This document shows, piece after piece, positions 1-41,116 of a DNA stretch of 41,116 nt; position 1 is the first letter of the stretch, and each line of letters opens with the position of its first letter. The DNA comes from Phragmitibacter sp. (GTDB lineage Bacteria > Verrucomicrobiota > Verrucomicrobiia > Verrucomicrobiales > Verrucomicrobiaceae). Made by a program: the position numbers and the translations under genes. Location: the NCBI GenBank assembly GCA_025361865.1, contig JANYJH010000377.1:1-41116 (forward strand), written 5' to 3'. The notes beneath the pieces are model-generated. The model did not search any database, was not told the origin of the DNA, and saw nothing but the letters and a program-made list of their open reading frames with translations.

Positions 1-121
1 ATTGACGGCCTGATCGGCGGCCTGATCGGCGGCCTGTTCGGTGGCCTGTTCGGTGGCCTGATTGACGGCCTGATAGACGGCCTGACGGGTGGCCTGATTG
101 ACGGCCTGTTCGGTGGCCTGT
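1..121. repeat. Terminal direct repeat, left copy (assembly overlap)
   Basis: These 121 bases are identical, base for base, to 40996-41116. Joining the ends through this overlap keeps the 12-bp repeat register and the reading frame of the gene that crosses the junction, giving exactly 568 codons including stop. That is what a circular assembly graph cut open with a k-mer-sized overlap looks like. A true short terminal redundancy inside a coding repeat is less likely but is not excluded. Confidence 0.9.
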
Positions 122-441
122 TCGGTGGCCTGACGGGTGGCCTGATAGACGGCCTGACGGGTGGCCTGATTGACGGCCTGTTCGGTGGCCTGATTGAAGG
201 CCTGTTCGGTGGCCTGTTCGGTGGCCTGACGGGCGGCCTGATTGACGGCCTGATAGACGGCCTGATCGGCGGCCTGACTGGTGGCCTGATTGACGGCCTG
301 TTCGGTGGCCTGTTCGGTGGCCTGATAGACGGCCTGACGGGTGGCCTGATTGACGGCCTGTTCGGTGGCCTGATAGACGGCCTGATAGACGGCCTGATCG
401 GTGGCCTGATTGACGGCCTGATTGACGGCCTGACGGGTGGC
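1..441. repeat. 12-bp tandem repeat array, left part
   Basis: About 37 head-to-tail units of GGCCTG followed by six variable bases drawn from a small set (ATTGAC, TTCGGT, ACGGGT, ATAGAC, ATCGGC; rarely ATTGAA, ACGGGC, ACTGGT, ATCGGT). The array continues at 40807-40995 across the circle junction, about 52 units in all. On the minus strand it is coding: each unit gives x-x-Gln-Ala. The constant half CAGGCC shows no synonymous change anywhere that I could see, which points to recent homogenisation. Confidence 0.95.
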
Positions 442-702
442 ATCACCAAAAGTCTTACGCAGATACCAGCCGCACGCCGCGAATCCCGCAGCGAATATGG
501 CGACAAAAGGAGATGGGACGAAAACAACCCTGCCATGCCAAGGAAGGTTGGCAGCTTCGTATTGTCCCTTCAAGGTGGCGACCATCACGTCGCGATCAAC
601 GCTATCCATTGGATCGGTGCTCATGGCATTGGCGATCCATTTGTCAGCCCAAGGCTTAAGTTGCGCGCGATGCTCTTCTGTAAGTGTGTATTCTTTGCTC
701 AT
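1..702 (-). CDS. QA-tetrapeptide repeat membrane protein, N-terminal part (continues at the other contig end)
   Basis: N-terminal part of one gene that reads from 702 down to 1 and then from 40995 down to 39994 (567 residues when the circle is closed). Residues 1-87 are a non-repetitive domain beginning MSKEYTLTEEHRAQLKPWAD, with a hydrophobic segment at about 59-80 followed by basic LRK, so probably one membrane span. About 210 residues of x-x-Q-A repeats follow (VNQA, TEQA, TRQA, VYQA, ADQA). It lies 32 bases downstream of the RQGDVLL gene in the leftward early operon. I recall proteins with this kind of N-terminus, a variable repeat and a DUF6745-like C-terminus from other phages and bacteria; their function is unknown. 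The ATG at 702 is the first start in the frame. Confidence 0.85.
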   Translation of the reverse strand, partial: MSKEYTLTEEHRAQLKPWADKWIANAMSTDPMDSVDRDVMVATLKGQYEAANLPWHGRVVFVPSPFVAIFAAGFAACGWYLRKTFGDATRQAVNQAVNQATDQAVYQAVYQATEQAVNQATRQAVYQATEQATEQAVNQATSQAADQAVYQAVNQAARQATEQATEQAFNQATEQAVNQATRQAVYQATRQATEQATEQAVNQATRQAVYQAVNQATEQATEQAADQAADQAVN

Positions 703-734: not shown

Positions 735-1058
735 TTAGTCCGCTACGTTGCGGATGGCTTCCGGCGTGTATTCGCGCTGGCGAATCCCTAGATAGATACC
801 CGGGGGGATTGGGATAGCGGTATGCTCCTGATGCTCCAGAGAGGAGCCTGGTTTTACTTTTACAACCAGTCCACCGCCAGCATCGGAGTAGTCACTGGCT
901 TTGGAGCGCGGGAAGCTATGATGATGCCCCGTCGCTTCTCCATGAGCGAGGATGACACGGCCCTTGGTCGTGCGGACTTTAAGGCCATCGGTGGATTGCT
1001 CCGTAGCGATAAGCAGGACATCGCCTTGGCGATAAGATGGTTTGGCTTTGGTTTTCAT
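735..1058 (-). CDS. Conserved RQGDVLL/GEATGH-type small protein
   Basis: 107 residues. The family is recognisable by RQGDVLL near the N-terminus (10-16), GEATGHHH (40-47), a middle ending LEHQEHTAIPIPPGIY (74-89) and the C-terminus IRQREYTPEAIRNV (92-105). Proteins of this pattern occur widely in phages and bacteria, and as I recall often next to DUF6745-type repeat proteins, as here. No biochemical function is known to me. The frame is open further upstream, but that part overlaps the preceding gene; the ATG at 1058 begins MKTKAKPSYRQGD just after that gene stops at 1079, so I chose it. The His-rich GHHH plus HQEH could bind metal; that is a guess. Confidence 0.75.
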   Translation of the reverse strand: MKTKAKPSYRQGDVLLIATEQSTDGLKVRTTKGRVILAHGEATGHHHSFPRSKASDYSDAGGGLVVKVKPGSSLEHQEHTAIPIPPGIYLGIRQREYTPEAIRNVAD

Positions 1059-3091: not shown

Positions 3092-3147
3092 GCGCATGAA
3101 AGCCTCTTGCGCCTTGATAGAGTGCGCTTTCCGTGCAAATAGAGTGC

Positions 3148-4311
3148 ATGAACCGTGCATTAAAGAAACATTCCAGAGTTGAGCTAGCGCCCGAAGAGCG
3201 CCCGAAATTGCCCGAAGCTGCCCGAAACTACGTTTCCCATGAGGGGCGTAAATTCCCGCTCATCCGTGACAATGGGGGACTGTGGCGGATGCGCTCACGC
3301 TCGAAGTCTCACGCGGTTGATGTAGGCTTGGGCACAACGAATTTATCGGCAGCAAAGATCATCGCGAAAGCGGCTTTAGAAAACCGACCTGAAAAGCATC
3401 GGCGAGGAGCGAAGACGTTGGAAGATTTGGCAAAGTTCTATCAGTCGCAGGCTCCACGGCGATGCAATGATACGACCGCAGCGAACAATATAGGACGGCT
3501 GCGAACGGTAGTCAGAACGGCATTGAAGAAAGAATTGGCGAATGTTCGAGACTCTGAACTCACCTGCTCTTTATGGCCAGCGTTCGTCGCCGTGAAGCAT
3601 AATGGAAAGGCTGACTTCGCTACAAGACGACCTGAGAATGAGGCGATCAATGCGGCGATGCGCACCGCAGCGGCGCTGTTTACGGAAAGGTTGCTGCCGA
3701 TCTATAAGGAAGCAGGCTTCCAGCTTGCCGCAAGCGTGGGAACCGTGCAGTGGCTCCCTATCATGGCGCATTCACCAAAGCCCGCTGATGATGAAGCGCT
3801 TATCGAAGCATGGGAGGATATGGAGGAGGATGATCTTCGACGCCCTTTGTGGCTCGCTATCGGCTTGGCACGGTTCGCTGGGTTGAGGCGTTCGGAGATC
3901 GAGCACGCCCGAAGGTCTTGGCTGGTAGAGCGTAAGGGCAGGCCCTACATTGAGCTAAGGGATAGACCGGAGGAAAACTACCTCACCAAGACGGGGAAGC
4001 CCTACCGCGCTCTCATCCTTTCAGACGCTCTTGCGGAGAAGCTTAAAGCGGTGCCGGACGGGGAATTCCTAGTGCCCCTGCCCACTCACTCACGTCATAA
4101 TTGGTTCGTTGCGGAACCGCAAGCGTGGGTGGCTCAATTCACCAGCGCCCCGCATCCGTTGCATCGCCTGCGTGGGCTTTATGCGGATCAGATCAAGGAA
4201 CTGACGGAAGATGCTGTTGCGGCCCATTTGGCGGGGGTCAAAGCGGCATCCAATGCGCTTGGGCACACGAACACGAAAACGACGGTCAACCACTACCTTT
4301 CAGGAGACTGA
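3148..4311 (+). CDS. int: Tyrosine-family integrase
   Basis: Site-specific recombinase that would insert and excise the prophage. Numbered from the in-frame GTG at 3133 (392 residues; I place the start at the ATG 3148, five codons on). The catalytic domain shows R252 in AGLRRSE, a TKTGKPYRALIL beta-hairpin with K286 or K289, H344 and R347 in HRLRGLY, H378 in LGHTNTKTT and the nucleophile Y388 in NHYLS: the full R-K-H-R-H-Y set, so it should be active. The N-terminal 90 residues contain an APEERPKLPEAAR stretch produced by phased GCCCGAA repeats in the DNA. It is the largest rightward gene, alone between the lipoprotein and the lysis end of the late operon, and its last 12 bases overlap the convergent endolysin gene. 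Confidence 0.92.
   Translation: MNRALKKHSRVELAPEERPKLPEAARNYVSHEGRKFPLIRDNGGLWRMRSRSKSHAVDVGLGTTNLSAAKIIAKAALENRPEKHRRGAKTLEDLAKFYQSQAPRRCNDTTAANNIGRLRTVVRTALKKELANVRDSELTCSLWPAFVAVKHNGKADFATRRPENEAINAAMRTAAALFTERLLPIYKEAGFQLAASVGTVQWLPIMAHSPKPADDEALIEAWEDMEEDDLRRPLWLAIGLARFAGLRRSEIEHARRSWLVERKGRPYIELRDRPEENYLTKTGKPYRALILSDALAEKLKAVPDGEFLVPLPTHSRHNWFVAEPQAWVAQFTSAPHPLHRLRGLYADQIKELTEDAVAAHLAGVKAASNALGHTNTKTTVNHYLSGD
3189..3226. repeat. Four helically phased GCCCGAA repeats inside the 5' end of int
   Basis: GCCCGAA at 3189, 3200, 3210 and 3220: spacings of 11, 10 and 10 bases. The spacing changes by a base, so the reading frame differs between copies (PEE, RPK, LPE, ARN); the DNA motif, not the peptide, is what is conserved. 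With the two copies at 2992 and 3003 this makes six sites around the integrase start. Confidence 0.65.
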
Positions 4312-8188: not shown

Positions 8189-9283
8189 TTAACTATCATT
8201 GATGACAAGGCCTTGGCTCGTCATCCATGTGCGGACAGCTAGGAGTTGTTGAGTTAGCGTGACGACTTGCGCGCGCAAGTCGTCAACCTTGGCAGCATCC
8301 ACTGTGTCAGATCCAGACATGCTAGCCTCAGTATATTCGTTCAGTGCCGAAGCCTTATTCCCCGAGGAACCAAGCGCGCCCCAACCATGTTCGACTGTAA
8401 GAACATAGGAGTCGCCCTTATCGCCCTTATCGCCCTTATCTCCTTTGTCGCCCGCACTGCCCGCTGGTCCTTGAACAGTAGAGTTTGTGCCGTTGGTTCC
8501 GTTGGTTCCGTTGGTTCCGTTATCGCCCTTGTCGCCCTTGTCGCCTTGATCACCTTTGTCGCCCGCACTGCCCGCTGGTCCTTGAACAGTAGAGTTTGCG
8601 CCTTGATCACCTTTGTCGCCTTGATCACCTTTGTCGCCTTTATCGCCTTTATCGCCTTTATCGCCCTTGTCGCCCTTATCGCCCTTGTCGCCCTTATCGC
8701 CTTGATCACCTTTTTCTCCGATGTCGCCCTTCGCGCCTGTGCTGCCAACGGTAGTAACCAGTGACCAATCTCCCATAGTGGTGGAGTTAGAAACCCAAAG
8801 CTCCGTGAGAGCATCAAGCTGGATGCCAAGCTGGCCTTTACGCTTAGGCTTTACGGCGGTTCGAGCCGCAGCGTTTGCCCAGCTTGCGACATCCTGCACA
8901 GCAGCGCCCGCGCCCGCGTCAAAGATGCCGTTGCCGAGAGCACGAGCAATTTGCTGAGCCATCATCACGACGAGATCAAGCGCGGTCTCATGCGAGGTGG
9001 AGGGGAAAGCCCCGCCTTCGGGGTAAGAAATAAGCTGCGTCAGCGGCACCTTCCGATAAATAACCACGGTTTGACCGCTGGTATAAGCCGCTGATGTTTT
9101 CACCACGTCTGGCGAGCGAGTGACGAGCCATGCACCATCCGCAAGCGGAACCAGCGCCCCACTCACGAGCAAGGCTACTTTGATATGATTCGCGTCGTAA
9201 AACGGAAACGGGATGGCGTAGCCAACGGACGTTGAGCCGTTGCCTGCATACCGGATTTCGCAAACCTCGCTGTCAATCGCCAT
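8189..9283 (-). CDS. Tail fibre with T7-type N-terminus and collagen-like stalk
   Basis: 364 residues from the ATG at 9283. Residues 1-125 (VCEIRYAGNGSTSVGYAIPF, later YRKVPLTQLISYPEGGAFP and SHETALDLVVMMAQQIARAL) match the T7 gp17 N-terminal domain that joins fibre to tail. About 180-291 are Gly-X-Y triplets, mainly GDK and GDQ, with NGT repeats and two copies of NSTVQGPAGSAGDKGD: a trimeric collagen-like stalk. The rest ends in a coiled-coil-like DDLRAQVVTLTQQLLAVRTW trimeriser. No chaperone or enzymatic domain is visible. A TTG start at 9307 would add eight residues; the ATG fits the family better. Confidence 0.85.
   Translation of the reverse strand: MAIDSEVCEIRYAGNGSTSVGYAIPFPFYDANHIKVALLVSGALVPLADGAWLVTRSPDVVKTSAAYTSGQTVVIYRKVPLTQLISYPEGGAFPSTSHETALDLVVMMAQQIARALGNGIFDAGAGAAVQDVASWANAAARTAVKPKRKGQLGIQLDALTELWVSNSTTMGDWSLVTTVGSTGAKGDIGEKGDQGDKGDKGDKGDKGDKGDKGDKGDKGDQGDKGDQGANSTVQGPAGSAGDKGDQGDKGDKGDNGTNGTNGTNGTNSTVQGPAGSAGDKGDKGDKGDKGDSYVLTVEHGWGALGSSGNKASALNEYTEASMSGSDTVDAAKVDDLRAQVVTLTQQLLAVRTWMTSQGLVINDS
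8442..8598. repeat. 46-bp direct repeat inside the collagen-like fibre gene
   Basis: 8442-8487 and 8553-8598 are identical over 46 bases, 111 bases apart, which is a whole number of codons (37). They encode the STVQGPAGSAGDKG module twice. Slippage or recombination between them would delete or add 37 residues of stalk without breaking the frame. Confidence 0.85.
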
Positions 9284-9322
9284 TGAAAGACGGGGAAGAA
9301 TGACCAAGGCGATGTCAACGAG

Positions 9323-34808: not shown

Positions 34809-35573
34809 TTAAGGCACTAACGAAAATTCCTTGAGCCGCCGCACCAGCGCAGCCCCGCGCGTCTTGTGGCGCAGCGCTAGCGCGTCTGCTCCCAAGTTGC
34901 TCGTCCAGAGGATGGGCTTCTTCCGTGACGTTCGATGCTCAATCAGGCTGGCGAATGCTTCACTGACGGCTTCGCTGGGTGACTCTTGACCGATGTCATC
35001 CAAGCACAGGACGCGGCAGGCTTTCGCGGCAGCTAGCTTTTCGCTTGCGGCTTTGGCTACACCCCAGTCATCAGACCATTGCTCACGCACGGCAGAGGCG
35101 TATTCGGTGGCTGGAAGGAAGATCCATGTGCAATCGAGACGCGAAAGGATGCCTCGCACGATCAACCGAGTCTTGCCTAATCCCGTGTTGCCCATCAATC
35201 CGATGCCTGTGGCGCTGGGTTGCCATGCTTTCACCGTGGCGATCACCCCATCTGGCAGCTTGGAGAGTTTCGGGTTGAACTCTTCCCGATAGGTTGCGGG
35301 AATGGCTCGCCAGCGGCTTTCGCGGAGAGCTTTCACTTCCGCTTCGTGCTCTTCCCGCTCCTGCTTTTCCATTTCTGCAATTTCAGCCTCTCTGCGCTTC
35401 CAAAAAGCATCTTGGCTGTCCTCACCCTCGCTGATGATTTGGACGCCCTGAACAGCGCTTAAAAACGAATTAAGCGGTATTCTAGCTGGCGGTCGCAGGT
35501 AGCATTCCAGTTCATGGCCTAGCCAAGGCTGGCCGCATTTCTTGCAATTTCCGGTTGGAATTAATGCCTCCAT
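34809..35573 (-). CDS. DnaC-like helicase loader ATPase
   Basis: 254 residues from the ATG at 35573, which has GGAGG 13 bases upstream. A small zinc-binding start (C10, C13, H20, C24), a charged coil (FWKRREAEIAEMEKQEREEH), then the AAA+ core: Walker A GNTGLGKT (128-135), Walker B LDDIG (191-195), and the WTSNLGADAL sensor region near the end. Such proteins load the host DnaB helicase at the phage origin. It overlaps the DUF1376-type gene by 13 bases. The frame stays open to 35693, but that overlap is not needed. Confidence 0.85.
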   Translation of the reverse strand: MEALIPTGNCKKCGQPWLGHELECYLRPPARIPLNSFLSAVQGVQIISEGEDSQDAFWKRREAEIAEMEKQEREEHEAEVKALRESRWRAIPATYREEFNPKLSKLPDGVIATVKAWQPSATGIGLMGNTGLGKTRLIVRGILSRLDCTWIFLPATEYASAVREQWSDDWGVAKAASEKLAAAKACRVLCLDDIGQESPSEAVSEAFASLIEHRTSRKKPILWTSNLGADALALRHKTRGAALVRRLKEFSLVP

Positions 35574-36352
35574 GATGCTTGAATTTCCTCCGTGGTAGGT
35601 TGATTTTGCGCGGGTGTTCCCTCGTCTTCCCATCGGCGCTGGTTCAGCCATGTAGCGGGCTGCGGGATGAATTGGCCGTTGTTTTTTTGCCATTGTTCCG
35701 AGGATTTAGCTCGTGTTAAAGCCGCAAGCAAAACGTCAATCTTTGGGCGAGCTTTAACACGGTTCCAGCTTTGCGAAGCCGCGCCTTTGCCTTCGCGTTT
35801 CGGGTAGGCATTCCAGAATTCGAGAAAGGATGCCGAGTAGGTAAAACCTTCCCCGTCCGGCAAGGGGGTTAAGGGGGTTGATACCGAAGGTATCATATTG
35901 GTTATTGGTTTATGGTTTATGGTTGGTTGACGTTCCGTTGACGTTCCGTTGCCCATTCCGTTGGTAGGGTCGTTGCGTTTCCGTTGCAACGGAACGTCAA
36001 CGGTCGTTGAACGGTCGTTGCGTTTCCGTTGCCTCGATTCAGCACTTGCTTTGCCTGCGCGGGAAGCGGTTTCAATCTGGTTTTTGTAGCTTAAAATCTC
36101 GGCGTCAATTCGCTTATGACGAAGACCTTCAGGCGTGGGCAGGAAAAAAGCAGATGATACCTTTTGAACCGCGTCACGCTCGACTTTCGAGACGGCTCTA
36201 ACAATTCGGCAGAGCGTAGCCTGATTGCTTGGTAATGCCTCTCCAGTAACATAGTAGCAATCCATCAGCAATCGGTAAGCCCCGTGCTCAGCAAGGCTCA
36301 AATGAGCCGTATCGCGGTTGTAGTCGCCAATATGATGTGAATAGTAATGCAT
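35561..36352 (-). CDS. DUF1376-type replication protein with origin inside the gene
   Basis: 263 residues. The N-terminus MHYYSHHIGDYNRDTAHLSL, then AEHGAYRLLMDCYYVTGEAL, is the DUF1376 domain of phage replication initiators, with a winged-helix character. The middle is low-complexity and basic (QRKRND twice), produced by repeated DNA at 35929-36032. The C-terminus (FLEFWNAYPKREGKGAASQS, then FIPQPATWLNQRRWEDE) is a common phage replication domain that may contact the helicase. Arrangement is like lambda O: initiator with iterons in its own gene, followed by the helicase loader. No Shine-Dalgarno. Confidence 0.85.
   Translation of the reverse strand: MHYYSHHIGDYNRDTAHLSLAEHGAYRLLMDCYYVTGEALPSNQATLCRIVRAVSKVERDAVQKVSSAFFLPTPEGLRHKRIDAEILSYKNQIETASRAGKASAESRQRKRNDRSTTVDVPLQRKRNDPTNGMGNGTSTERQPTINHKPITNMIPSVSTPLTPLPDGEGFTYSASFLEFWNAYPKREGKGAASQSWNRVKARPKIDVLLAALTRAKSSEQWQKNNGQFIPQPATWLNQRRWEDEGTPAQNQPTTEEIQASWRH
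35880..35928. other. AT-rich block next to the iterons (possible unwinding element)
   Basis: It begins with a small hairpin, GATACC-GAA-GGTATC (35880-35894), and continues with repeated TTATGG/GGTTTAT words, clearly AT-richer than the flanks. Adjacent to the repeats at 35929-36032 it fits the site where an origin opens. Confidence 0.5.
35929..36032. repeat. Iteron-like repeat cluster, probable replication origin
   Basis: GACGTTCCGTT at 35929 and 35940 (tandem, 11 bp), and inverted at 35988-35998. AACGGTCGTTG at 35999 and 36010 (tandem, 11 bp). The 20-bp GGTCGTTGCGTTTCCGTTGC at 35968-35987 and again at 36013-36032. All are exact, and most repeat at one helical turn. They lie in the coding sequence of the replication protein, as lambda's do. 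Confidence 0.75.
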
Positions 36353-37393: not shown

Positions 37394-37834
37394 TTAAAAT
37401 GGAATATCATCGTCTGACATCGCATCCGCCTGTTGGCGGATGCTTTGGCGTTCGGGTGGAGCCTGTTGGCTGCGCTCTCGCGATTCACTGGAGCCTTCCT
37501 TCTTCCCGCCGAGGAACTGCATGGATTCACCGACGACACGGAGCTTGCTACGTTTCTGCCCCGTGGCCTTGTCTTCCCAAGAATCCAGTTGGAGACGCCC
37601 TTCGATGTAGAACGGAGCTCCTTTTGTAAGGTATTTCCCCACGAGTTCCGCGAGCTTTCCCCACAGCGTCACGTCAACGTAGGTCACTTCCTCGCGCTTC
37701 TCGCCATTATCCGCAGTATAAACGCGGTTCACGGCGATGCTGATGTCTGCGACGGCACTGCCTTTGGGTGTAAAACGCACTTCGGGGTCTCGCGTGAGAT
37801 TGCCGATGAGCATGACTTTATTCAGTGATGGCAT
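37394..37834 (-). CDS. ssb: Single-stranded DNA-binding protein
   Basis: 146 residues. MPSLNKVMLIGNLTRDPEVR is the standard SSB start, an OB fold to about 110 (ISIAVNRVYTADNGEKREEV, WGKLAELVGKYLTKGAPFYI), a Gln/Arg-rich linker, and the acidic tip DDDIPF that recruits partner proteins. Protects single strands during replication and RecT-driven recombination. Overlaps the nuclease gene by 17 bases. Confidence 0.95.
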   Translation of the reverse strand: MPSLNKVMLIGNLTRDPEVRFTPKGSAVADISIAVNRVYTADNGEKREEVTYVDVTLWGKLAELVGKYLTKGAPFYIEGRLQLDSWEDKATGQKRSKLRVVGESMQFLGGKKEGSSESRERSQQAPPERQSIRQQADAMSDDDIPF

Positions 37835-39044
37835 ATTCTTGAGATGGTAATTGTTCGATCACGCTTGTTTTGTCAGCCTTGCGAGCGTGCGCTCCCGCAG
37901 CTTCAAGGGCGACATTCAGCGCGCTCTTGGCCTCGGCTCCAGTCATGTTATAAATGGGCCGTTTACCTTCCTTCTTGATGCCGCTCGCCTTACGAATGGC
38001 TTCCTCAAGCGGACCGATAGACACCGAACCGGCGGCGAGCATATCCGCCTCCGTAACCCCAAGGGGGGCCAGCGCAGCGAATGCCTTCTGCGCATCCGTA
38101 ATCTCACGGTTGCCGGGCTTCGTTTCGATGGCCCAGCCAGGAATTTCCCCCGATTCAACGCGAGATTTGAAAGATTGCTCGATTGCATCCACGTAGCGTC
38201 CCACCATCGCAAGACCGCGATAAGCGGCGATGTGACGTTCCGGCGTCAAATATATAGCTCGCGCAAACATCGCGGATCGTTGCAACTTGGCATCAAGGCC
38301 TGCAATAGTCATCGGCTCGACAGCCTCAAGCTCTTGCAGTGCGCTCCGTTGCAGCGCAGGGCAGGTGTGCGCGGCCTTGCACCACTTACACCAGTCCCCA
38401 GCTTTCAAATCTGACTCGCTCGCGTTCTCAGCAGCTTCGAGAGCTGAAGCCAGCCAAGATTTTGCCAACACCAAGGCATCAGGGCCGTAGTCGCAGATCG
38501 TCGGCTTGCCCGCCCACGGCTGAACGATGGCCACACGAACGCTCTTGACGCGAAAACGCCCAGCGACCAAAACGGCCAGAGCCGCAAGTTGCGCGTTTTC
38601 TTGAGCAACGGGCGTGTCTCCGCGCCCGGTCTTGTAGTCAATGACTAACGCACGATCCTTATCAACGTAGATAACGTCCGCCTGTCCCGTGAAACGGAAG
38701 TCAGCCTGACAATCCTCCGTTACATCAAGGACAGTGCCAAGTTGCGTTAGGCCCAGCCGTTCCTCAAAAAGCTCAATGGGCGTGTTTTCTGGAATGATCC
38801 ATTCAGCGTGAATGGAATCGTTTTGCTGCTCGCACATGTCGCACGTTTCAAACTCCGCCTGCGTGAGAGTTGCGTATTCAGCGAGCCCCGCCAGAACGGC
38901 ATGAATGCGCGTTCCGCTGGCAGCAGCTTCGCTTTCTGAATCAACACCATGCGTTGATTCCATTTGCCAAGACGCAGGGCATTGAACCAACCGCTCCATT
39001 CCGCTAGCGGAGGGAACCCCGCGCCTTTCATCCGCAGCAATCAT
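37818..39044 (-). CDS. PD-(D/E)XK nuclease, Cas4/AddB-like with four cysteines
   Basis: 408 residues (DUF2800-type phage exonuclease). Catalytic residues read H48 (GTRIH), D123 (GQADVIY), D136 and K138 (VIDYKTG), and Q in QLAALA. One Cys near the start (C22, QCPASW) and three at C219, C222 and C228 (DWCKWCKAAHTCPA) form the one-plus-three set that holds a 4Fe-4S cluster in AddB and Cas4 nucleases. It probably resects DNA ends for RecT next door, with which it overlaps by ATGA. A long helical C-terminal part (300-408) follows. Confidence 0.85.
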   Translation of the reverse strand: MIAADERRGVPSASGMERLVQCPASWQMESTHGVDSESEAAASGTRIHAVLAGLAEYATLTQAEFETCDMCEQQNDSIHAEWIIPENTPIELFEERLGLTQLGTVLDVTEDCQADFRFTGQADVIYVDKDRALVIDYKTGRGDTPVAQENAQLAALAVLVAGRFRVKSVRVAIVQPWAGKPTICDYGPDALVLAKSWLASALEAAENASESDLKAGDWCKWCKAAHTCPALQRSALQELEAVEPMTIAGLDAKLQRSAMFARAIYLTPERHIAAYRGLAMVGRYVDAIEQSFKSRVESGEIPGWAIETKPGNREITDAQKAFAALAPLGVTEADMLAAGSVSIGPLEEAIRKASGIKKEGKRPIYNMTGAEAKSALNVALEAAGAHARKADKTSVIEQLPSQEYAITE

Positions 39045-39958
39045 TTTCCTGCCCCCTTCCCAATCAAGGCAACCAAGGCCGTCCAGTTAAGGACTGCTTG
39101 GCTCAGCGTCTCTTCATCGGCGTCTTCATGCGTGTCAGAGCTGCTTTCCGTAACGCCATTTCTAACCAGCATTTCATTGATGGCTGGCCATTTCAACTTA
39201 TCCCGCCTCAACAACGCGCTGACCTGCTCCACGAGGGAAACAGGCGCGACTTCAAGCAGGTTTTGGGACTCCTCAACTATCGCCGATTTCTTTGGCTCAG
39301 GGAGCGCTTTAGGCTGAAACAGTTTTGGCTCACTCGCCGTAGCCGTCACATCCCGCTCGCGCGGCATGTCCATTGCTTCCTCCGTGTTGCGGAAGCCTTT
39401 CAAGGCATCCCCGAAGGAGTCACGCAAAGCAAACGACCGTGCCCGATTGCGCAACATCCGAAAAGGGTATTGCGTCCACGGCCCCGACTTACCCCATAAG
39501 CTCGCCCGCTTGGCGTCAGCGACGCTGAAGGCGCTCTCCACTTCCCCGCCATTCAGCCGCTTGATGCGACAGACAGCGGCGGTATCATCCTTGTATTCCG
39601 AAGGATTGCGGGAGGTCCGAGCCCCGCCGACCTCAAACCATTCCTCGAAGGCTTCCATTTCACCTGTCCCACGACAGACAGCGAGTTGAGCGTCTCCCCA
39701 AATGGTTGGACGGCCATTCACAACAGCGATGTTTTGCAGCGCAGCCATTGGTGAAAGGCCCACTTCCAATCCCATTTGGACGGCCACAAAAATTGACTGT
39801 GGGGACTCCATCCCCTTAGGAGCAAGGCCGGACTTGGAGACTGTTTCAGCAAACCGCACGAGATCATCATATTGGTTGATGACGATTCCCCTGTCACCGA
39901 AAGCGACGGGTGCGCGTGATGGGCGCGCTTCTTGAGTAGAAATTGTTGATTCTGACAT
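39041..39958 (-). CDS. recT: RecT-family single-strand annealing protein
   Basis: 305 residues. LAPKGMESPQSIFVAVQMGL, then EVGLSPMAALQNIAVVNGRP and IWGDAQLAVCRGTG are the conserved RecT core; AKRASLWGKSGPWTQYPFRM and LRNRARSFALRDSFGDALKG complete it. Anneals complementary strands in phage recombination with the nuclease and SSB genes downstream. The C-terminal 90 residues are a variable tail. 35 bases after the repeat-protein stop. Confidence 0.92.
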   Translation of the reverse strand: MSESTISTQEARPSRAPVAFGDRGIVINQYDDLVRFAETVSKSGLAPKGMESPQSIFVAVQMGLEVGLSPMAALQNIAVVNGRPTIWGDAQLAVCRGTGEMEAFEEWFEVGGARTSRNPSEYKDDTAAVCRIKRLNGGEVESAFSVADAKRASLWGKSGPWTQYPFRMLRNRARSFALRDSFGDALKGFRNTEEAMDMPRERDVTATASEPKLFQPKALPEPKKSAIVEESQNLLEVAPVSLVEQVSALLRRDKLKWPAINEMLVRNGVTESSSDTHEDADEETLSQAVLNWTALVALIGKGAGK

Positions 39959-39993: not shown

Positions 39994-41116
39994 TTAGCTC
40001 TCGATGAGTGGCGCGTATTCTTCGCCACGAAGACCAAAGGTTGAAGCCACTGCATTATGAGCCGTCATCTCTTGGGGCCGTTGCTCGCGCATCCAAGCCT
40101 CTTGCTTCTCGCGAGGCCACGCCCCATCAGGAAGCGGACGAAGATCAAGAGCCACACGCAGGAAGAATTCCTTGCGTGAGCCGTCCGGTTCCTCCGTGGA
40201 ATTGATGACGTGGACCATGACAAGGTCTTCGTCGCCACTCATGCGCTTACGGTAGAGCGTGCCCGCTTTGTCTTGATGAATCTGCTCTGCTCCCGCTTCT
40301 TTGATGAAGCGGTCAAGACCATACTTTTCGACCATGACCCGCCTGATTTCAGCGTTGGCTTCGGCTTCGATTTTTGATACCGTAATGTCTTCCGGTTTCA
40401 AGATGATCCAAGCAGGGACACGGACGCCATGAACGGAGAACAGCGCCGAGCCGTCCGACCACTGGCAGAATGGGCCGTCGATGCAGTGCGGCCTGTTTTG
40501 TTCATCGACTTTCAGGATGACTGGCCTATCGGATACCACGCAGAACTCTGAATGCAGGTATTGAGGCCCAGCGTGAATGGAGCCTTTTTCGTAATGATCC
40601 CACTTAGAGTAATCAATGCCGTGACTCTCTCCCAAATTAGCAACATGTCTAAAAAAGGAAATATAAGCAGCCCATCCGCTCCATTGGTTCCCGCCCCGCC
40701 ACATATACCAAGCAGCATGTGCGCAGCGCAGGCCCAATTTACCGACTTTGAGACGGGCAGCTAAAGCCGTCCAGTCACAATCTACCACAGCCCATGTGGA
40801 TAAATCGGTGGCCTGACGGGTGGCCTGACGGGTGGCCTGATAGACGGCCTGATTGACGGCCTGACGGGTGGCCTGATAGACGGCCTGACGGGTGGCCTGA
40901 TTGACGGCCTGTTCGGTGGCCTGTTCGGTGGCCTGACGGGCGGCCTGATTGACGGCCTGACGGGTGGCCTGATAGACGGCCTGATCGGCGGCCTGATTGA
41001 CGGCCTGATCGGCGGCCTGATCGGCGGCCTGTTCGGTGGCCTGTTCGGTGGCCTGATTGACGGCCTGATAGACGGCCTGACGGGTGGCCTGATTGACGGC
41101 CTGTTCGGTGGCCTGT
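39994..41116 (-). CDS. QA-tetrapeptide repeat protein, C-terminal part with DUF6745-like domain (partial at contig end)
   Basis: Continuation of the gene that begins at 702; 40996-41116 repeats 1-121, so the real coding part is 40995-39994. After about 16 more x-x-Q-A units the repeats end at about 40807 (ATDLSTWAVVDCDW) and a 270-residue domain follows: GGNQWSGWAAYISFFRHVAN, KWDHYEKGSIHAGPQYLHSE, FCVVSDRPVILKVDEQNRPH, EIRRVMVEKYGLDRFIKEAG and, at the end, HNAVASTFGLRGEEYAPLIE. These are the marks of the DUF6745 family as I remember it. The GTG at 40788 is only an internal codon. Function unknown; next downstream is recT. Confidence 0.85.
   Translation of the reverse strand, partial: QATEQAVNQATRQAVYQAVNQATEQATEQAADQAADQAVNQAADQAVYQATRQAVNQAARQATEQATEQAVNQATRQAVYQATRQAVNQAVYQATRQATRQATDLSTWAVVDCDWTALAARLKVGKLGLRCAHAAWYMWRGGNQWSGWAAYISFFRHVANLGESHGIDYSKWDHYEKGSIHAGPQYLHSEFCVVSDRPVILKVDEQNRPHCIDGPFCQWSDGSALFSVHGVRVPAWIILKPEDITVSKIEAEANAEIRRVMVEKYGLDRFIKEAGAEQIHQDKAGTLYRKRMSGDEDLVMVHVINSTEEPDGSRKEFFLRVALDLRPLPDGAWPREKQEAWMREQRPQEMTAHNAVASTFGLRGEEYAPLIES
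40807..41116. repeat. 12-bp tandem repeat array, right part
   Basis: The same GGCCTG-plus-six units as at 1-441, about 16 of them before the 121-base overlap that begins at 40996. In phase with the left part when the circle is closed. Confidence 0.95.
40996..41116. repeat. Terminal direct repeat, right copy
   Basis: Identical to 1-121. Removing one copy gives a 40,995-base circle with an unbroken 568-codon gene through the joint. Confidence 0.9.

Follow-up and report, generated by a model that had tools for sequence, protein, structure and literature searches.

A turnover-prone tetrapeptide array between the conserved domains of a phage DUF6745 protein with a small partner

The array gene and its neighbours

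The window, by which we mean the whole stretch of 41,116 nucleotides that was analysed, is a circular phage contig, since its last 121 bases are an exact copy of its first 121. The array gene runs across this junction on the minus strand, from position 702 to 1 and then from 41116 to a stop at 39994, and the joined protein of 567 residues consists of a conserved N-terminal domain, an array of four-residue units ending in Gln-Ala and a C-terminal domain of the DUF6745 family (Table 1). All 52 units of the joined protein are perfect xxQA, and the Pfam match to DUF6745 covers residues 374-518 (E=1.6e-46, 158.6 bits against a gathering cut-off of 27), so that both the roughly 52 repeats and the DUF6745-like end claimed in an earlier note on this DNA hold. 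The break of the contig falls within the array, and the 121-bp overlap has a length that resembles an assembler k-mer; the figure of 52 units is therefore that of the assembly and as such unproven. The pentapeptide repeat PF00805 is absent among the Pfam matches of the array protein, in which the period is four residues. Weak Pfam and NCBIfam matches on the array (FlgT, DUF445, translocon proteins and others) were set aside as composition effects.

Table 1. Positions of the array gene's parts, its neighbours and other features of the window.
Feature	Position	Strand	Remarks
N-terminal domain, residues 1-88 (88 aa)	439..702	-	ATG at 702; conserved in 15 aligned sequences
xxQA array, first part	1..438	-	TRF; bases 1-121 are also the contig's final 121
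xxQA array, remainder	40810..41116	-	TRF; joined total 52 units, residues 89-296
C-terminal domain, residues 297-567 (271 aa) plus stop, DUF6745 (PF20530)	39994..40809	-	Pfam
Partner gene, 107 aa, RQGDVL...GEATGHHH...RQREY family (phrog_27831)	735..1058	-	ATG at 1058; 32 bases upstream of array gene
RecT-like ssDNA annealing protein	39041..39958	-	phrog_561, E=1.8e-32; next gene downstream; context, membership in the module not implied
Exonuclease (DUF2800/PDDEXK)	37818..39044	-	Early operon context
Tyrosine integrase-like gene	3133..4311	+	By eye (RLRGLYADQIKE...GHTNTKTTVNHY); strand opposite to early genes
Gene with collagen-like GDK/GXY repeats in its second half	8189..9307	-	Period-9 DNA repeats
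Very long open frame, 2310 aa	9323..16255	-	
Primosomal/replication-initiation-like gene	35561..36352		Holds the 11-bp repeat
11-bp direct repeat GTTGACGTTCC, 3.4 copies	35926..35963		

The gene sits in an early DNA-metabolism operon, ahead of recT, exonuclease and ssb, and the earlier note was right to place it beside recT. It had also asked whether repeat change might be driven by the annealing protein that the phage encodes. We do not favour this, because the copies in M. abscessus prophages vary strongly and have no annealing-protein gene in the annotated stretch; the closest relative of the window copy (L134) carries a Sak4-like annealing protein beside its array gene. Elsewhere in the window, the integrase-like gene suggests that the phage is probably temperate, the product with collagen-like repeats is probably a tail fibre, and the 11-bp direct repeat is possibly iteron-like and thus a candidate origin.

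The small gene on the other side of the array gene recurs with near constancy. In 58 loci it adjoins the DUF6745 gene in the same orientation, upstream in 28 and downstream in 30, and a further such locus (L137) had been misfiled by our distance rule since the frame had been taken from stop to stop. It is present in 59 of the 60 testable relatives, a single one (L056) missing it; 24 further loci could not be assessed. It also lies beside bacterial DUF6745 genes, so that the pairing extends over phages, plasmids and chromosomes. When the partner itself was used as query, all nine plasmid records matched had a DUF6745 match or annotation close by, and the Microcystis phages that were matched had the DUF6745 gene adjoining. 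Invariant residues in the partner alignment are Q, G, D, three H, E and D, and the protein has no significant match in Pfam, NCBIfam or the PDB.

Structure prediction with AlphaFold2 separates the end domains from the array. In the model of a relative (L140), the N-domain (pLDDT about 90) and the C-domain are confident and the array is helical at low confidence; in a 373-residue part of the window's own protein, the array helices have a pLDDT of mostly 48-72 and the C-domain is confident, at more than 90 over most of its length. The single long helix that had been proposed thus stands to the extent that helices are modelled, and a pLDDT of about 40-70 over the array helices of both models makes it a faint suggestion. 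In a straight alpha-helix, the fixed pair would circle once per about nine units, because a four-residue unit advances 40 degrees. A membrane link through residues 59-80, also proposed before, is doubtful: this stretch lies inside the conserved N-domain, its hydropathy of 2.08 in the window protein compares with 0.66-1.71 in the 14 relatives compared, and its equivalent in L140 is a strand plus helix within the confident domain. Foldseek with the L140 model gave no PDB match at E<=0.001, and its matches in BFVD were exclusively DUF6745 or unnamed phage proteins; a sequence-profile search of the DUF6745 C-terminal domain against the PDB likewise gave no match.

Composition and turnover of the array

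Relatives were collected in several ways. An IMG/VR profile scan with an alignment as query returned 80 loci, and the same scan with the window's own C-domain as single query gave no match. A scan for the Gln-Ala DNA pattern yielded, among the matches listed, mostly unrelated repeats and few true relatives (for example L056, L072 and L075), and a genome scan with a conserved stretch yielded five relatives. In 66 of the 80 viral loci, a four-residue array precedes DUF6745 and, wherever the contig extends that far, follows a similar N-domain. It was undetected in the other 14, of which five are cut at the 5' end by the contig end, and the DUF6745 gene of the Microcystis phages has none; since it is missing in some relatives, the array is dispensable for the core pair. 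Complete arrays span 7 to 76 units, with the proviso that those from draft assemblies may be partly mis-assembled, and the contig ends within the array in 31 of the 66 array-bearing viral contigs, as expected if arrays defeat assembly or vary within a sample.

The fixed pair differs from phage to phage (AT, SV, QV, QL, SL, QA, NL and others), and a common register nonetheless emerges, [A/S/Q/N]-[T/V/L]-[variable]-[D/A/Q/S/G], in which the first residue is small or polar and the fourth is mostly D, A, Q, S or G. The column entropies average 0.09, 0.22, 1.83 and 1.00 bits in a set of 61 arrays to which Tweety gp54 belongs, and the variable residues are drawn mostly from G, R, W, D, E, Y, S, N and H.

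In the window array, both halves of which are detected by TRF, the units are VN (12), TE (12), TR (10), VY (9), AD (4), AR (2), TD (1), TS (1) and FN (1). As the earlier note had observed, Gln-Ala is coded by CAG and GCC throughout (52 of 52 units), and no column holds a synonymous codon: the other two residues use only ACC, GTC, GCC and TTC followed by AAT, CGT, GAA, TAT, GAT and AGT. The order of the units, by contrast with the lack of obvious order claimed before, is non-random. Twelve unit triples are repeated against 4.9 in shuffles (p=0.0005), as are six quadruples against 0.8 (p=0.002), and this excess of triples indicates that larger blocks are copied; autocorrelation by lag over the unit order gave no single higher-order period. 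A diversity-generating retroelement seemed an improbable cause, since the units come from within the array.

Near-identical phages reveal how fast such arrays change. Three M. abscessus prophages (L129, L195 and L198) have no differences over the 249 nt of the N-domain and zero or one over the 645 nt of the C-domain, and their arrays of 46, 19 and 62 units differ in order; a fourth (L197) has the same C-domain and a truncated array of at least 20 units. Two other relatives (L136 and L153) are identical over 750 nt 3' of the array and differ in 10 of 27 aligned units, always nonsynonymously. A further pair (L181 and L182) differs at 2 of 720 nt and has 19 versus at least 35 units, and another (L141 and L142) differs at 0 of 723 nt and by a few gapped units, one of the two arrays being cut. 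The neighbouring kilobases are 99.3-99.9% identical in these near-identical pairs. Only L198 departs from this, with 93.5-97.1% identity to L129 and L195 over blocks in which array sequence is included.

Array length changes as a rule in in-frame 12-bp steps among near-identical relatives. The exception is the xxQV array of Nocardia farcinica plasmid 3 (L131), which has two frame changes, possibly a sequencing error or real decay, versus the in-frame 15-unit array of its near-identical relative L203. The rapid unit turnover that had been predicted is thus borne out in relatives of the same architecture, which keep neither repeat number nor order, and, of the signs that would argue against a selected, fast-evolving array, frame-breaking indels were seen in this one exceptional array. 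We found no near-identical relative of the window copy, and our confidence in the anatomy and in the turnover, the latter shown in relatives and not in the window copy, is high.

Selection for variety at the variable residue fits the codon data. In the hypervariable column, 15 of 188 single-step changes are silent where 39.7 are expected (P=9e-7; 54 arrays), in a test that tallies the types of codon in an array under a uniform mutation model; in the three other unit columns of the same arrays, silent changes are near expectation. The hypervariable column is the same one in phages with different fixed residues. Selection on a few chemistries, as suggested in the earlier note, gains support.

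Possible roles of the array

We propose, as a full explanation on which our judgement is evenly poised, that the two genes form a conflict module tuned through the repeat array, a function for which we argue from the precedent of Tweety gp54, the pattern of selection and the location among early genes and on mobile elements. The module would comprise the small RQGDVL/RQREY protein with its invariant histidines and the DUF6745 protein, whose tetrapeptide array would be the adjustable part between the N-domain and the DUF6745 domain. In the relatives, whole 12-bp units are gained, lost and rearranged between almost constant flanks, presumably through recombination or slippage, and changes at the variable codon are biased to amino-acid replacement. 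Unit number and kind may then set the spacing or a binding surface between the end domains, which could allow the phage to readjust how it contacts a partner that itself changes; the likeliest such partner is a defence protein, encoded by the host or by a resident prophage. Least certain of these steps is that the constant pair of DUF6745 and partner would be the active part. The anti-defence function that had been raised as a possibility remains a live option through gp54 (PMC9262239).

The direction of the conflict might instead be reversed, with the module protecting the phage or lysogen from other phages as a prophage-encoded immunity or exclusion system and the array sensing or binding invader proteins. 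This is a doubtful reading in our estimation, although the pair occurs in prophages, plasmids and chromosomes, chromosomal DUF6745 proteins carry fused leucine-rich repeats and are encoded beside STM4014/STM4015-type genes, a repressor lies upstream in two relatives (L173 and L178) and the integrase-like gene recognised by eye suggests a temperate phage: the position of the window gene ahead of recT, exonuclease and ssb, in an operon for early DNA metabolism, fits use during infection, and PADLOC has no matching model for the module.

It is unlikely that the array is a tolerated unstable linker, slipping freely with only frame and crude solubility preserved. Such a linker would accommodate arrays of anything from 7 to 76 units, the occasional missing array and the low AlphaFold2 confidence; it sits poorly with two nearly fixed columns, with variable residues taken mostly from a small set, and with a column that is hypervariable despite different fixed residues and depleted of silent changes. 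That the repeat matters at the DNA level, perhaps by binding proteins or by promoting recombination, with the encoded protein incidental, is very improbable: 12-bp units are near one helical turn and recT adjoins in the window, but it is the amino-acid pattern and not the DNA that is conserved between phages, conserved domains lie in frame on either side, and silent changes are depleted at the variable codon alone.

Comparison with Tweety gp54 and bacterial DUF6745 proteins

The closest precedent for the tunable array is gp54 of phage Tweety, which has 48 AAxx units and counterparts of 26 units in Che8 gp57 and 15 in PMC gp51, with ends more than 95% identical (PMC2884959). These repeats are 12-bp units with two fixed and two variable residues and invariant third codon positions, which the authors read as selection for variation (PMC2884959). 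According to two later reviews, gp54 mutants with more or fewer repeats escape the gp29/gp30 defence of prophage Phrann, and gp54 is described as a counter-defence tunable via repeat number (PMC9262239; PMC8549241).

Like gp54, the window protein has an in-frame array of 12-bp, four-residue units with two near-fixed and two variable residues, and relatives of its architecture vary in repeat number between conserved flanks. Unlike in the window, the gp54 units are AAxx and no RQGDVL partner lies in the 4-kb stretch around gp54. The ends differ as well (hhalign probabilities of 0.2% and 0.1% when the N-terminal part of Tweety gp54 was compared), and gp54 has neither DUF6745 nor any other Pfam match. 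On sequence grounds, then, the window protein appears to resemble gp54 at the level of the array, which does not in itself place it in the gp54 family; because gp54 lacks DUF6745 and its N-terminal part is unrelated, the function of gp54 is not transferable by homology. Another phage repeat whose copy number varies between isolates, VR2 of Bordetella phage BMP-1 bbp36 (described in PMC2884959), is set apart as a 24-bp element in a different gene.

Bacterial and plasmid DUF6745 proteins share the C-terminal domain and the adjacent small partner with the window, and in most of those read the array is replaced by leucine-rich repeats, membrane segments or plain sequence; several lie near STM4014/STM4015-type genes, and the xxQV array of N. 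farcinica plasmid 3 is exceptional. Among the chromosomal and plasmid genes at hand (L002-L006, L225, L130, L132 and L236), several have leucine-rich repeats and one (L130) plain sequence, the partner adjoins where checked, and several are near ATP-grasp or STM4014/STM4015-type genes. The cluster of DUF6745, ATP-grasp and STM4014/STM4015 genes is uncharacterised, and our literature search found no paper naming DUF6745.

These results link a domain of unknown function with a small gene that almost always accompanies it and with an array whose rapid change can be measured. Nearly identical prophages whose arrays range from 19 to 62 units offer a natural experiment on whether repeat number or content determines specificity. 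We tentatively extend the proposal to a widespread two-gene phage module in which the hypervariable array might serve as a recognition domain that can be swapped, equivalent in phages to the leucine-rich repeats of bacterial DUF6745 proteins, with units recombined to track defence partners; we regard this extension as possible rather than probable. The comparison suggests that the Tweety repeat is one case of a general phage strategy and not a mycobacteriophage curiosity.
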